35,301 nt of DNA from a bacterium (GTDB lineage: Bacteria; Zhuqueibacterota; QNDG01; DSAB01). The translations under genes and the position numbers were made by a program. Below the pieces are notes generated by a model, which did no database searches, had not been told where the DNA came from, and worked only from the letters and a program-made list of their open reading frames with translations. Within the stretch, counting starts at the first letter, position 1. Each line of letters opens with the position of its first letter. Positions 29,365-35,301 of the stretch are shown here, one piece after another. The stretch covers positions 1-35,301 of the forward strand of contig DSAB01000036.1 of NCBI GenBank assembly GCA_011388275.1, given 5' to 3'.

Positions 29365-31287
29365 TTATTGTTTCAAATGTTTCTTCGCAAAGGACAGCGA
29401 CCCTCCGGCCCGAATAACGTCGATGTCCCTTTCGCTCAGAGAGTGTGTCACAGGCACTTCGATTCCCTGTGTTTTGTTTCTCAGGATCAACGGAGTCTCC
29501 AGAGACCTAACATCGATTTCAAGTTGATCTCCCTGGTTGACCTTTCTATAATCCTGCTCATGGACAAAAGTCAGGGGAATGATGCCGAAATTGATAAGAT
29601 TGGCCAGGTGAATCCGGGCAAACGAGACCGTAATAACCGCCTTGATACCTAAAAACATGGGCGCCAATGCCGCATGTTCCCGGCTCGACCCTTGTCCATA
29701 GTTGGCGCCTCCCACGATAAATCCTCCGCCGGCCGCCTTCGCACGCTGAGGAAAAGACGGATCAACAACCTCAAATACATGTTCTGAAATGGCCGGGATA
29801 TTGGACCGCAGGGGTAATATTTTGGCACCCGCGGGCATGATATGATCCGTGGTGATATTGTCCTCTACCTTGAGAAGAACCTCGCCTTTGAGAACATCCG
29901 GAAGCGCCTCCTTGACAGGAAGGGGTTTGATATTGGGGCCGCGTATAATCTCCACTTTATCGGGTGTCTTGGACGGAGGAATGATCATGGAATCATCGAT
30001 GGGAAACTTCTCGGGCAGGCTGACGGTAAAGGGTTTGATTCCCAACTCCCTGGGATCAATGATTTCTCCGGTCAAAGCCGCCGCTGTCGCGGTTTCCGGA
30101 CTGCACAGGAACACGCTGGCACTTTTGGTTCCGCTTCTTCCAAGAAAGTTTCGATTAAACGTCCTCAGGGTCACGGCATCCGTGGGTGGAGAAAACCCCA
30201 TTCCGATACAGGGCCCGCAGACGTTTTCAAGAATTCTCATTCCAGACGCGATGATCGACTCCCAATAACCATTCTGAATCAGGCTCATCACAACCTGTCG
30301 CGAACCCGGAGCCAGGCCGGCCGTGACATTGGGATGAATAGGCCGCTCTTTCAGCATGTGGGCAACCATCATCAAATCACGGTATGAAGAGTTTGTACAG
30401 CTGCCCATAGCAACCTGGTGGACAGGAGTTCCGGCCAGATCCTTGACCTTGACTACATTGTCCGGCATATGAGGCCTGGCAATAAGGGGTTCAAGTGAGT
30501 TCAGATCAATGGTGATCTGTTCGTCATACTCGGCATTTGAATCGGCCTCCAGGGCTTTCCAATCGGCATCCCGTTCCTGGGCTTTTAAAAACATCCGAGT
30601 CTGCTCATCGCTGGGAAAAACCGAGGTGGTAGCGCCCAGCTCCGCTCCCATATTGGTAATGGTCGCCCGTTCAGGAACCGTCAGCGTCGCCACTCCATCA
30701 CCGGTATACTCCATCACTTTTCCGACACCGCCCTTGACCGAAAGTCGTCGCAACACTTCGAGAATGATATCTTTGGCCGAAACAAAAGGATTCAACCGTC
30801 CATTGAGCTGAATATTGACAACCCGGGGAGCCGTTAAATAAAACGGCCTTCCTCCCATGGCCAGAGCAACATCCAGTCCGCCTGCGCCGATGGCTATCAT
30901 CCCGATTCCGCCTCCGGTAGGCGTATGGCTGTCCGATCCCAGAAGGGTTTTCCCGGGCACACCGAACCGTTCAAGGTGCAGCTGATGACAGATTCCATTC
31001 CCGGGCCTTGAAAAATAAATCCCGTATTTGGCGGCAATGGATTGAAGAAACCGATGATCGTCGGCGTTTTCGAATCCCGATTGCAATGTGTTGTGATCCA
31101 CATAACTGACAGACAGTTCCGTTTTAACACGCGCAAGATCCAAAGCTTCGAACTGCAGGTAAGCCATGGTGCCCGTCGCATCCTGAGTGAGGGTCTGATC
31201 AATACGAATAGCAACAGGGGAACCTGCTTTCAGTTCCCCTTCCACACAATGCGCTTCAAGTATTTTATACGTGAGACTCGACGCCAT
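29365..31287 (-). CDS. Aconitate hydratase
   Basis: Aconitase interconverts citrate and isocitrate in the TCA cycle using a [4Fe-4S] cluster. It has LLGSDSHTPTGGGIGMIAIG, the cluster ligands in MGSCTNS and CGPCIGMG, and the swivelling C-terminal domain with YGQGSSREHAALAP. I place the start at the ATG at 31287, which has GGGAG eight bases upstream and begins MASSLTYKILEAH like the family; this gives 640 residues, normal for the bacterial/mitochondrial-type single-chain form. In-frame TTG/GTG codons at 31323/31320 would add an atypical N-terminus. The gene follows the STAS-HTH gene by 46 bases and ends at a terminator. Confidence 0.93.
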   Translation of the reverse strand: MASSLTYKILEAHCVEGELKAGSPVAIRIDQTLTQDATGTMAYLQFEALDLARVKTELSVSYVDHNTLQSGFENADDHRFLQSIAAKYGIYFSRPGNGICHQLHLERFGVPGKTLLGSDSHTPTGGGIGMIAIGAGGLDVALAMGGRPFYLTAPRVVNIQLNGRLNPFVSAKDIILEVLRRLSVKGGVGKVMEYTGDGVATLTVPERATITNMGAELGATTSVFPSDEQTRMFLKAQERDADWKALEADSNAEYDEQITIDLNSLEPLIARPHMPDNVVKVKDLAGTPVHQVAMGSCTNSSYRDLMMVAHMLKERPIHPNVTAGLAPGSRQVVMSLIQNGYWESIIASGMRILENVCGPCIGMGFSPPTDAVTLRTFNRNFLGRSGTKSASVFLCSPETATAAALTGEIIDPRELGIKPFTVSLPEKFPIDDSMIIPPSKTPDKVEIIRGPNIKPLPVKEALPDVLKGEVLLKVEDNITTDHIMPAGAKILPLRSNIPAISEHVFEVVDPSFPQRAKAAGGGFIVGGANYGQGSSREHAALAPMFLGIKAVITVSFARIHLANLINFGIIPLTFVHEQDYRKVNQGDQLEIDVRSLETPLILRNKTQGIEVPVTHSLSERDIDVIRAGGSLSFAKKHLKQ

Positions 31288-31333
31288 GCCGGTTTCTCCC
31301 AAATATTTTCCTTTTTTCACCAACCTTTCGGTT

Positions 31334-31984
31334 TCAGTGGCTTTTGCCCAACGCTTCTTCTCTTTGCTTTCGACCGCCCAGGTTCAGTTTTCTCAGGTAA
31401 CGCCACACCGTCAGAGTGCCCACCCGACTGAATCCATATTTCTCTGTATTCAGCTCTCTGGAAATGCGGGATGGTCCCCACGATACATTCTCCAATGCCA
31501 GCTGTCGTATTTTCTCATCCAGTCCTTGAGGAATACTTTGCATTTCCATTTCCGGCTCTTCAGACACCATTTCAGGCCGATCCTCTTCGTCCACCGGTTC
31601 TGCCCTTTTCAGAGTCGAAATGCCCATTTCTTCTTCAAAGCTGTTGATTGCCTCCTCAACCGTATCAAATGCCTTGAGGATATAATGAAATTCCAGAAGC
31701 TCGAAAACTTCATAAACATCGGGAATCATGCGAGCCAGTTTCAGATCTCCATTCCTTTCCCGCATTCCCTTGATTTCACTGATAAAAATCCCCCACCCCG
31801 CACTGGAAATATAATCCACATTCCCCAGATCAATAATCACGCGGAACACACCCGCCTTCAACAGGGAATCCAACGCCCTTTCCAGCTCAGAGGATGTCGT
31901 TGTATCAATATAACCGCCGACACGGATGATGGAAATATCACTTTGAGGTCCGATTTTCTCAACTGAAACCTGAATGCCTTCCAT
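31334..31984 (-). CDS. STAS anti-anti-sigma-like protein fused to a helix-turn-helix domain
   Basis: This is a 216-residue protein starting at the ATG at 31984, which has an AAGGAG seven bases upstream. Residues 1-115 form a STAS domain with the phospho-acceptor loop LGNVDYISSAGWGIF (Ser60/Ser61). An acidic linker (EEDRPEMVSEEPEMEM) follows. The C-terminal 60 residues are a helix-turn-helix of the IS481/IS3-transposase type (ENVSWGPSRISRELNTEKYG, then TLTVWRYLRKLNL). STAS proteins normally act by binding an anti-sigma kinase when unphosphorylated and have no DNA-binding part. Here the protein could bind DNA directly. The neighbouring phosphatase protein carries a matching module. Confidence 0.88.
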   Translation of the reverse strand: MEGIQVSVEKIGPQSDISIIRVGGYIDTTTSSELERALDSLLKAGVFRVIIDLGNVDYISSAGWGIFISEIKGMRERNGDLKLARMIPDVYEVFELLEFHYILKAFDTVEEAINSFEEEMGISTLKRAEPVDEEDRPEMVSEEPEMEMQSIPQGLDEKIRQLALENVSWGPSRISRELNTEKYGFSRVGTLTVWRYLRKLNLGGRKQREEALGKSH

Positions 31985-32030
31985 GAATATCTCCTTCCGC
32001 CCTATCACGAATTCTTGTTAACAGTAGAAC

Positions 32031-32059
32031 AATTTAATAGAAAAACCCACCATTGTCAA
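32031..32059 (-). promoter_or_regulatory. Sigma-70-like promoter for the STAS-aconitase transcript
   Basis: On the minus strand a perfect TTGACA (32054-32059) is separated by 17 bases from TAAATT (32031-32036), 47 bases upstream of the STAS start codon. Spacing is optimal and the -10 matches four of six consensus bases. It begins just ten bases after the stop of the kinase/phosphatase gene, so the STAS gene can be transcribed on its own. Confidence 0.6.
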
Positions 32060-32069
32060 CTCTTTTATC

Positions 32070-35000
32070 CTACAAATACTGCTGCCTGATCACCCTCTGC
32101 ATCTTCTTGATTCTTTCGATGATATCCCGCCTTTCCGGATTCCTTTTCAAAACTTCCCCCCATTGCCAAACCGCCTTTTTATAATCCCCCCGATTGGCAA
32201 ATATCACTCCCAGATTTTCCAACACACTGACATTGCCCGGGTCCAGATGACGAACCCGTTCATAGGCATCCCTGGCTTCTTCCATTCGACCCATTCGAAA
32301 ATAGGTATCGCCAAGACATTGAAACGCATCGGCAAATTCCGGATCTTCTTTAACGGCTTTTTGAAATGCATCGACCGCCGCCTGATAATCCCCCGCCCTG
32401 TATAAAACAAGACCTCTGTTTAAAAAGTGGGTTTTTCGTTGATGAATGATCGCGGGGCTGGGTTTTTCCCGCCTCGGGGTTTTCCCGGTTGACAACATGT
32501 TTCGGCGATCGAAGCCCAGTTCCTCCATCACATCGATGAATCCATCTTCCTCCTGATCCGATACAGACAAAGTGGTATTCTCCTCGACACCCATCTCTTC
32601 ACTGATTAAATCACCCACAATGGATGCGGTGATATGGTCTTCGATTTCATTCTCTTCATGCTCTGAATCCACTTCCTCATTCAGCAATTCGTCCATTGAG
32701 GGTACACGCTCCTGTGTACCGACCAATTCTTCTTCGAATGAAGACTCTCCATTCAGATCCAGCACATCGGTAATGATTTCGTTGAGAACCGACTCTTCCT
32801 GCTGCACACTGTCTTCGATCAGCGATTCAGGGCTTTCCATCTCAAAATCGATTTCATCTTCTCGCAAAACATCCTCTTGCATGATACGCCCGTCGGCTGT
32901 CTCAGAAACGGTTTTTCCATCTTCCGGTGTTTCCTTTTCTTCCTTCTCCGTCTCCTTGTAATCGGTTTCCAGGTCTTCCGCCTGACCGGGCAGCCCCAAA
33001 AAACGGTCTAAAACATCGGTATCTTCCTTTCTTCCTTCATCTTTTTGCCGTGAACTTCTCTGCGATATGCGCAATACTTTGGACTGTGGAAAATCATCGG
33101 ATACCGAATCCGGTTCACCGGCCGGAGAACCATCGATAATGACCTTGCCGTCCATGGTCAGCATCGGAGTACCGGGTGTTTTAATGCGTTTGGCTTTGCC
33201 CCCCCGCTCGATAAAATTCATGCGCAGTTCCCTGGTGTTCAGACGGCTGCGCTTGAGTTCATCATAGATGCGTCGTTCATCCATTTTCACGTAACCGTAT
33301 TTTTCCGAATTCAACTCTTCGCTGATCCGCTTGGCTCCGAATTCAGGATTGTTCTTAATAATATCCAGAATCCTGGCTTTGTCTTCAATGCTGGTGTGCT
33401 TTTCTTCAAGATCAGACCGTTGCGTGGTTTCTTTTAATCCTTCAATTCCCTGCTTGTCATAGCGTTTTTTATATTTATAATAGGTGGATGTGGAAACACC
33501 GATAATCTCACAGGCTTCCTTAACGCTTTTTCCCTCTTCATTCACCAATCCAATAAGCCTTAGCCGCCGGTTGTACATCACATCTTCCGCCTTCAGTTTT
33601 TCCCGAATCGCCATTAAAGTGATATCATCACTCTGAGCAAACCCCTGAGTGAAATCCTTGATCTCATCCTGTAGCTTGTCAACCAACGGATCCACTTTCA
33701 GTTCTCCATGGCGGCGTATCGATTCCAGAAACCGTTCGTCGCCGTATCGCTCTCTTTTTGGGTCCATCGCTTCGGTGATCCCGTCCGTATAGAGAATTAA
33801 TACATCGCCTTCCCTCAGCCACAGGTTATCGGATTGAATCGATTTCCTGAACAGTGTCCGATCAGGCAGGTTGATGCCAATGGGAAATCCTCTTGGATTC
33901 AAATAATAACTTTTCCTGGTTTGCCCGCGAAAGAGAATCATGGGATTATGACCCGCACTGGCATAATTGATGGTTCGGTTTTGAGAATCAAGAATCAGAT
34001 AAAAAACCGTGACAAACATACCGCGCTTCATATCGTTTATGACAAAATCATTGACCCTGGCCAGCACATCCGCCGCGTTTTTGTTTCCCCTTGCCTCCGT
34101 TCTCAGGGCCGTTCGAATCATGGTCATAACCAGAGAACCGGGCACGCCTTTTCCCGACACATCAGCCACCACAATGCCCAGAGTATCTTTGTCCACTTCC
34201 ACAAAATCAAAATAGTCGCCTCCCACTTCCTTGGCCGCTTCATAGTAGGATGCGATCTCATAGCCTTCAATTTCCGGAAACACCGCCGGTAAAAGAGTAT
34301 GTTGAATTTCCTGCGCAACCTGCATCTCTTTCTGAAGCCGTTCCTGTTCCGCCAAATTTTCCTGCGACTTGCGGAACTTTTCCGTAATCTCATTAAAGGC
34401 TTGTGCGATCTCGCCGACTTCATCGGATGCGTTGAATTCCATTTCATCCTGAGACTCACCCCGGCCTAAATCGCGGACCCACCTGGACAGTTTTTTAAAC
34501 GGGCTCATGGTTACATAAACCAATATAAAAACGCCCAGATACCCGATTACAAGCACAACAATACCGATCCCCATGGTCCTATGACGGGCCTGACGAATAT
34601 TTCCATCAATATAGTTTTTACTGAGCAGCAAATGAATCTGTCCCAGCCGGTTTGCCCTTCCCGAAACTTCATGAACAACCGGTTCGGTAAGATCGTATAC
34701 AGTCTCTTCGGTTGCCGGTATTGTATACTTCCAAACCGATGGAAAAAAGAGTACCGCATCAGACGGACGGCGATATTGCTGGAACAGGTATTCCGTAGTG
34801 ACCGCTCCTTTGATGGTGCCGCTGGTGTCGGCCACAATGGCCTCAACAATAAAAGGATCCTGATTCCGCTGAAGAGTTGATGCAATCTTCGTCAACTCCC
34901 ACATCTCATCATTCGTCAATGGATCGAGAATGCTGGAAGCCATGGATCTTGCCAGGGCCCTTCCCATATCAAAACTTTCATTTAAAATCACTTTTTCCTG

Positions 35001-35301
35001 ACGAATATAATTATAGGTGATGCCTATAACAGCCAGAAAGGTAAGTATCGCCGACGCAATTAAAGAAAATCGGTTCTTCATGGTTAGTGACAGTTCCGGC
35101 ACCAATAACTTTCTGCCTGATTCCGTTTCCCGATTTTTCGTTAACCGAAGTTCATTGCCTTCGGGTGTTTTGCGATAATCGATCTCATCGATCACCCGGC
35201 GAATGATAAAAATCCCCAAACCGCCTTTCTTCCCGATGTCCACATACCTTTGCAGATCGGGATCCTTGGCCTGATTGGGATCAAATGTATGACCCTGATC
35301 A
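32070..35301 (-). CDS. Membrane-bound kinase/SpoIIE phosphatase/HTH/TPR fusion protein, 5' end beyond window
   Basis: The frame is open to the right edge; a GTG at 35243 is internal. Bases 35300 to about 35130 encode the end of an RsbW-type ATPase/kinase domain (DQGHTFDP, GGLGIFIIRRVIDEIDY, GNELRLTKN). Then come a membrane helix (about 35075-35010), a periplasmic sensor of about 140 residues, a second helix (about 34575-34510) and a HAMP and coil. A complete SpoIIE/PP2C phosphatase follows (EVGGDYFDF, VVADVSGKGVPG, YTDGITEAMD, SDDITL; 34310-33600). Two helix-turn-helix units (33580-33440 and 33410-33230) resemble transposase DNA-binding regions. A highly acidic linker (about 33000-32510) leads to about three TPRs (32430-32080). 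It probably phosphorylates and dephosphorylates STAS partners in response to an envelope signal; the downstream STAS protein is the obvious candidate. Confidence 0.87.
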   Translation of the reverse strand, partial: DQGHTFDPNQAKDPDLQRYVDIGKKGGLGIFIIRRVIDEIDYRKTPEGNELRLTKNRETESGRKLLVPELSLTMKNRFSLIASAILTFLAVIGITYNYIRQEKVILNESFDMGRALARSMASSILDPLTNDEMWELTKIASTLQRNQDPFIVEAIVADTSGTIKGAVTTEYLFQQYRRPSDAVLFFPSVWKYTIPATEETVYDLTEPVVHEVSGRANRLGQIHLLLSKNYIDGNIRQARHRTMGIGIVVLVIGYLGVFILVYVTMSPFKKLSRWVRDLGRGESQDEMEFNASDEVGEIAQAFNEITEKFRKSQENLAEQERLQKEMQVAQEIQHTLLPAVFPEIEGYEIASYYEAAKEVGGDYFDFVEVDKDTLGIVVADVSGKGVPGSLVMTMIRTALRTEARGNKNAADVLARVNDFVINDMKRGMFVTVFYLILDSQNRTINYASAGHNPMILFRGQTRKSYYLNPRGFPIGINLPDRTLFRKSIQSDNLWLREGDVLILYTDGITEAMDPKRERYGDERFLESIRRHGELKVDPLVDKLQDEIKDFTQGFAQSDDITLMAIREKLKAEDVMYNRRLRLIGLVNEEGKSVKEACEIIGVSTSTYYKYKKRYDKQGIEGLKETTQRSDLEEKHTSIEDKARILDIIKNNPEFGAKRISEELNSEKYGYVKMDERRIYDELKRSRLNTRELRMNFIERGGKAKRIKTPGTPMLTMDGKVIIDGSPAGEPDSVSDDFPQSKVLRISQRSSRQKDEGRKEDTDVLDRFLGLPGQAEDLETDYKETEKEEKETPEDGKTVSETADGRIMQEDVLREDEIDFEMESPESLIEDSVQQEESVLNEIITDVLDLNGESSFEEELVGTQERVPSMDELLNEEVDSEHEENEIEDHITASIVGDLISEEMGVEENTTLSVSDQEEDGFIDVMEELGFDRRNMLSTGKTPRREKPSPAIIHQRKTHFLNRGLVLYRAGDYQAAVDAFQKAVKEDPEFADAFQCLGDTYFRMGRMEEARDAYERVRHLDPGNVSVLENLGVIFANRGDYKKAVWQWGEVLKRNPERRDIIERIKKMQRVIRQQYL

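Follow-up and report, generated by a model that had tools for sequence, protein, structure and literature searches.

A transposase-type helix-turn-helix module shared by a kinase/phosphatase and STAS proteins of Zhuqueibacterota, and its possible role as a docking tag

In cells with numerous PPM phosphatases and STAS proteins, what keeps each enzyme to its own substrates is still a question, and the known answers lie within the catalytic domains (PMC11418112). In the locus described here, a kinase/phosphatase and the STAS protein encoded beside it carry the same helix-turn-helix (HTH) module. At the end of the window (the whole stretch of 35,301 nucleotides that was analysed) lie two minus-strand genes, the kinase/phosphatase upstream and the STAS protein, here called STAS-A, downstream, with the following features.

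32070-35300, minus strand: kinase/phosphatase gene, truncated at its 5' end where the contig stops (full-length relatives are known)
35136-35300, minus strand: C-terminal part of an RsbW-type kinase domain (HATPase_c_2, E=2.8e-9)
35013-35069 and 34512-34568, minus strand: two predicted transmembrane segments flanking a putative sensor region (within 34380-35069)
34380-34511, minus strand: HAMP domain, after the transmembrane segments
33603-34190, minus strand: SpoIIE/PP2C phosphatase domain (PF07228, E=3.3e-51)
33429-33569, minus strand: first HTH of the kinase (HTH_23/28)
33198-33398, minus strand: second HTH of the kinase (HTH2), homologous to the STAS tail
33135-33197, minus strand: basic KR-x-K-PGTP segment (KRxKPPGTPMLTLDG-type) directly after the HTHs, with invariant columns among relatives
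32451-33116, minus strand: acidic linker (D+E 31%, K+R 9%)
32163-32441, minus strand: C-terminal TPR repeats
32031-32059, minus strand: sigma-70-like promoter of STAS-A (TTGACA-17-TAAATT), with counterparts in the same place in many relatives
31334-31984, minus strand: STAS-A gene (STAS domain, disordered linker and HTH tail), ATG at 31984
31625-31984, minus strand: STAS domain (Pfam PF01740, E=2.6e-18; TIGR00377 above cut-off)
31337-31522, minus strand: HTH tail of STAS-A, four helices (AF2 and profile matches)

The catalytic components of a partner-switching system are recognisable in this pair. The RsbW-type domain, a predicted serine kinase, is partial in the window because the contig ends there, and is complete and N-terminal in the full-length relatives L066 (E=2.8e-24) and L109 (Pfam). 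The SpoIIE domain has a predicted PP2C fold, its AF2 model matching the RsbU part of Rv1364c and the PP2C domain of SiaA in Foldseek searches, which together with the PF07228 match points to a phosphatase of this class. STAS-A, whose AF2 model matched SpoIIAA and RsbV, contains a conserved phosphoacceptor-type motif (YISSAGWG, 31790-31813, minus strand) in which SSAG is invariant, with S60/S61 unchanged across 112 sequences, and is therefore a predicted anti-anti-sigma-type protein. A conserved MEGIQ in the relatives places its start at the ATG at 31984 (216 residues), an alternative GTG lying upstream at 32008. Since the sigma-70-like promoter recurs just 5' of the gene, STAS-A is probably also transcribed apart from the enzyme. 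An aconitase gene (29365-31323) directly follows STAS-A in the window; in relatives, the pair is often followed by aconitase, isocitrate dehydrogenase or obgE, and a gene for an outer-membrane-type protein with TPR repeats is conserved upstream (gene names partly assigned by eye).

Within the module, the two proteins share a nearly identical 12-mer, RISRELNTEKYG in the HTH tail of STAS-A (31433-31468, minus strand) and RISEELNSEKYG in HTH2 of the kinase (33294-33329, minus strand), each preceded by a helix and an N-x-x-W/F-G turn (ENVSWG and NNPEFG, respectively) and followed by a further helix in the AF2 models. The original prediction of a module common to these neighbours was borne out by comparing profiles of 66 kinase HTH2 sequences and 59 STAS-A tails (hhalign 98%, E=2.5e-14), and judged by this profile match, the likeness is one of homology, not chance. 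The kinase has two HTHs in tandem, of which the STAS tail matches only the second. The 10/12 identity of the motif places the window pair in the top 0.7% of all kinase-STAS pairs; motif identity within loci averages 38%, and the window pair is only 31% identical across the 55-column module. For the module, identity was 26.9% within and 27.5% across loci (permutation p=0.90, 25 pairs). Because within-locus identity does not exceed cross-locus identity, the close match of the 12-mer appears partly fortuitous, and because the kinase modules moreover form their own clade, the duplication and exchange between neighbouring genes that had been proposed found no support as a recent event; exchange or gene conversion was rejected on the identity comparison. 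A sequence search of solved structures returned nothing credible, and Foldseek searches with both models were dominated by STAS and PP2C matches, so that the HTH fold was not placed independently.

The module is not missing from related genomes in either protein: the kinase carries it in 58 of 59 relatives and, in a second and largely overlapping set drawn from the same phylum, in 52 of 53 genomes, while STAS relatives occur in 59 of 59 genomes. Besides, kinase and STAS-A are immediate neighbours with the same orientation in 44 of 51 loci from a named genome collection, which agrees with their having been read as one conserved circuit; of the seven exceptions, two concern a second copy of the kinase and some extend to the end of a contig. 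The records of these 51 loci are labelled candidate division KSB1, Calditrichota or assorted MAGs, and the collection was scanned with degenerate patterns, which more distant relatives elsewhere could escape. As judged from this distribution, the module is ancient and lineage-specific. Zhuqueibacterota is the current alternative name of KSB1 (PMC11683472), and the host group consists of little-known uncultured bacteria.

The suggested kinship with IS481-type transposases was supported, in that the NCBIfam model NF033577 matches the kinase module over model positions 1-124 (E=1.4e-19), indicative of the N-terminal tandem HTH of this family, and the STAS tail over positions 49-116 (E=7e-4). No DDE catalytic domain accompanies the module; the IS481 match stops at position 124-126 of the 284-position model, and what follows is the acidic linker with TPR repeats in the kinase or the end of the protein in STAS-A. 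Modules match one another at 23-53 bits and transposases of the same genomes at no more than 16 bits, in a comparison set that was small and mixed. A recent IS481 insertion was rejected because the module is phylum-wide and stands further from the transposases of its host genomes than from its own kind. In the module tree, the kinase and STAS-B sequences (STAS-B and STAS-C being further carriers described below) each form a supported clade, and the STAS-A sequences are paraphyletic. STAS-C, which the profile scores place with the other modules, falls weakly with transposases in this tree; the 67 columns do not resolve a single-origin tree. Viral contigs held no relative of the module, and on plasmids there were STAS-domain matches only, none of which, among the matches listed, covered the tail region.

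Further copies of the module, a search for which the original prediction had called for, were found in 36 genomes with a pooled profile (A2, E<=0.01), and these were confined to the kinase/phosphatase, STAS-A, two further STAS proteins (STAS-B and STAS-C) and diverged long paralogues of the kinase, although many of these genomes also have IS481-type transposases. The window's own genome has ten SpoIIE phosphatases and nine STAS proteins, and the module is on one and two of them, respectively; it thus marks a minority. The additional carriers are as follows.

G000:C3:83261-83923 (L119:8627-9445): STAS-B, second STAS-HTH protein of the window's own genome
L155:4911-6533, L156:5520-7808, L157:4421-5968, L158:5274-6848, L160:5116-6792 and L215:3527-4696: STAS-C copies
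L115:3194-9172, L116:1052-6775, L117:4761-10352 and L118:2933-8515: long kinase/phosphatase paralogues

STAS-B occurs across the relatives. In each of the six genomes examined (the own genome, L119, and L120-L124), its gene sits in a cluster that extends from mreB and rodA to polysaccharide export. This cluster contains shape genes (mreB/mreC/PBP2/rodA) together with genes for a starch-synthase-like glycosyltransferase, an SLBB polysaccharide export protein, a Wzc-like protein, an epimerase and a sugar transferase, the Pfam assignments having been made for the own genome. STAS-C (390-766 aa) consists of an N-terminal STAS domain, a long linker and the module as its tail, and is encoded in a second export cluster beside a Wzc-like gene, a TPR protein and an epimerase. 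A polysaccharide-locus setting was thus seen for STAS-B and STAS-C and was absent for STAS-A. The long paralogues (~1,900 aa), seen in one family, have two blocks of TPR repeats and an acidic linker of great length; they are without the first HTH and have kept a diverged second one, the half that the STAS tails have. The very C terminus of STAS-B nearly always reads RYRFYRSR (KEKRYRFYRSR) or a close variant (L120, L122, L163-L211), an unusually invariant basic-aromatic end. The own genome also has a separate dense cluster (G000:C6:47944-53223) in which three SpoIIE proteins are encoded together with a plain STAS protein and an RsbW-type kinase; none of these bears the HTH tag.

Enzyme and STAS modules differ in charge at the positions that would contact DNA. 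Recognition-helix column 47 is D/E in 96% of kinases and K/R in 94% of STAS-A sequences, is R/K in 9/9 STAS-C copies, is mixed in STAS-B and is mostly K/R in the transposases compared; column 48 is E in 98% of kinases, and column 28 in helix 2 is E/D in the kinase and mostly K/R in STAS-A, -B and -C. The net charge of the recognition helix is -1.6 in the kinase and +2.5 to +3.0 in the STAS tails, whose mean net charge reaches +11 over 62 residues in STAS-B and +8 in STAS-A, while the first HTH of the kinase retains basic residues. Net charge of the whole module is non-specific as a test of DNA binding, given that transposase HTHs of the same genomes range from -4 to +11, some with E at the first contact position. 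The acidic columns 47-48 and the reversed column 28 argue that HTH2 of the kinase has lost the usual mode of DNA reading and instead presents a surface complementary to the STAS tails, and mixed dimers or docking between the modules are compatible with this pattern.

We therefore tentatively favour, at slightly under even confidence, a partner-switching circuit in which the module is a docking tag, matching a single SypE-like enzyme with both kinase and phosphatase domains to the STAS proteins that are its substrates. A membrane sensor with an RsbW-type kinase and a SpoIIE-type phosphatase would set the phosphorylation of a few STAS proteins, namely the adjoining STAS-A and, in the polysaccharide clusters, STAS-B and sometimes STAS-C. 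The IS481-type HTH would now serve mainly in protein docking, with the acidic HTH2 (or the acidic linker) of the enzyme gripping the basic HTH tails, such that the STAS proteins are delivered to the catalytic domains and do not mix with the cell's remaining phosphatases and STAS proteins. In the unphosphorylated form, the STAS proteins would work on the machinery of surface polysaccharide or of the envelope, much like SypA under the control of SypE; the gene clusters of STAS-B and STAS-C support this link to polysaccharide. With somewhat less assurance, we propose the stronger version, i.e. that a transposase-type DNA-binding fold has become a heterotypic docking code, acidic on the enzyme and basic on the substrates. 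Through this code, one membrane enzyme might govern two or three STAS outputs, two polysaccharide loci among them, and avoid cross-talk with the nine other SpoIIE phosphatases and the seven STAS proteins that bear no tag.

On the other hand, the STAS-HTH proteins might be DNA-binding regulators whose tails bind promoters, bypassing sigma and anti-sigma factors, with STAS phosphorylation controlling their release or dimerisation and the acidic HTH of the enzyme holding their site or imitating it. We regard this as the less probable but a serious rival, above all for STAS-C, which retains the canonical R-S-T-V-Y-R in its recognition helix; the module is homologous to the DNA-binding HTHs of transposases, and the strongly basic tails suit DNA as well as docking. 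However, contact positions in STAS-A and STAS-B are often W/F/Y and vary by lineage, each STAS protein has a single HTH half, and a limited by-eye search saw no recurring palindromic operator 5' of STAS-A and STAS-B, there being only the sigma-70-like promoter in the case of STAS-A. A purely structural role of the tails in folding, oligomerisation or stability, for which mutual contact would be unnecessary, seems improbable to us. HTH folds often act as dimerisation modules, and in the AF2 model SpoIIE is joined with the two HTHs in a single confident unit (pTM 0.81), but stability alone does not predict a module confined to the partners of one circuit and missing from other SpoIIE and STAS proteins. 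That both modules read the same DNA sites, as the original prediction thought possible, and so unite enzyme and substrate on DNA is very improbable despite their common ancestry and motif, because HTH2 of the kinase is acidic at columns 47-48 (D/E in at least 96%) where STAS-A, STAS-C and most of the compared transposases have K/R at column 47, and the enzyme has two predicted transmembrane segments.

The docking-tag circuit has its closest relative in SypE of Vibrio fischeri, in which kinase and phosphatase likewise reside in one protein that controls SypA, a STAS protein that belongs to a polysaccharide locus and forms the downstream output (PMC10120452, PMC8256260). By analogy, the present dual enzyme would set STAS phosphorylation, with the STAS proteins acting downstream on polysaccharide output; its sequence, too, predicts kinase and phosphatase in a single protein. 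Here, however, both partners bear an HTH, and the accessible text of these reports describes none for SypE or SypA (PMC10120452, PMC8256260). Unlike in that system, a single enzyme seems to act on two or three STAS proteins. SypE has a central response-regulator receiver domain, whereas the Pfam matches of the full-length relatives L066 and L109 include none, the enzyme having two transmembrane segments, HAMP and TPR instead. With RsbU/RsbW/RsbV and SpoIIE/SpoIIAB/SpoIIAA, the circuit shares a STAS fold with conserved serines, a HATPase kinase and a SpoIIE-type phosphatase; yet kinase and phosphatase are fused here, the STAS protein has a C-terminal HTH, and no sigma or anti-sigma partner, nor a sigma gene beside the pair, was found in the loci read. 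For SpoIIE and RsbU, specificity has been reported to reside in phosphatase-domain loops, with no added tag (PMC11418112), in contrast to the added module of the present proteins. Rv1364c of Mycobacterium tuberculosis (RsbU-RsbW domains, PDB 3ke6), the top Foldseek match of the phosphatase model, also has phosphatase and kinase on one polypeptide. Its domain order differs. We know of no transposase-type HTH in Rv1364c.

Taken at the level of sequence, the arrangement is real, conserved and unusual within partner switching, and it is unlike the known forms. If the docking-tag circuit is true, a shared extra module found on just one enzyme and its probable substrates would solve the specificity of PPM phosphatases in another way, and membership of the circuit could be predicted from sequence. 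It would likewise mean that parts of a transposase were reused in signalling and not for the reading of DNA, and would link the circuit to the envelope polysaccharide of a phylum that has been reported from biofilms (PMC11683472).
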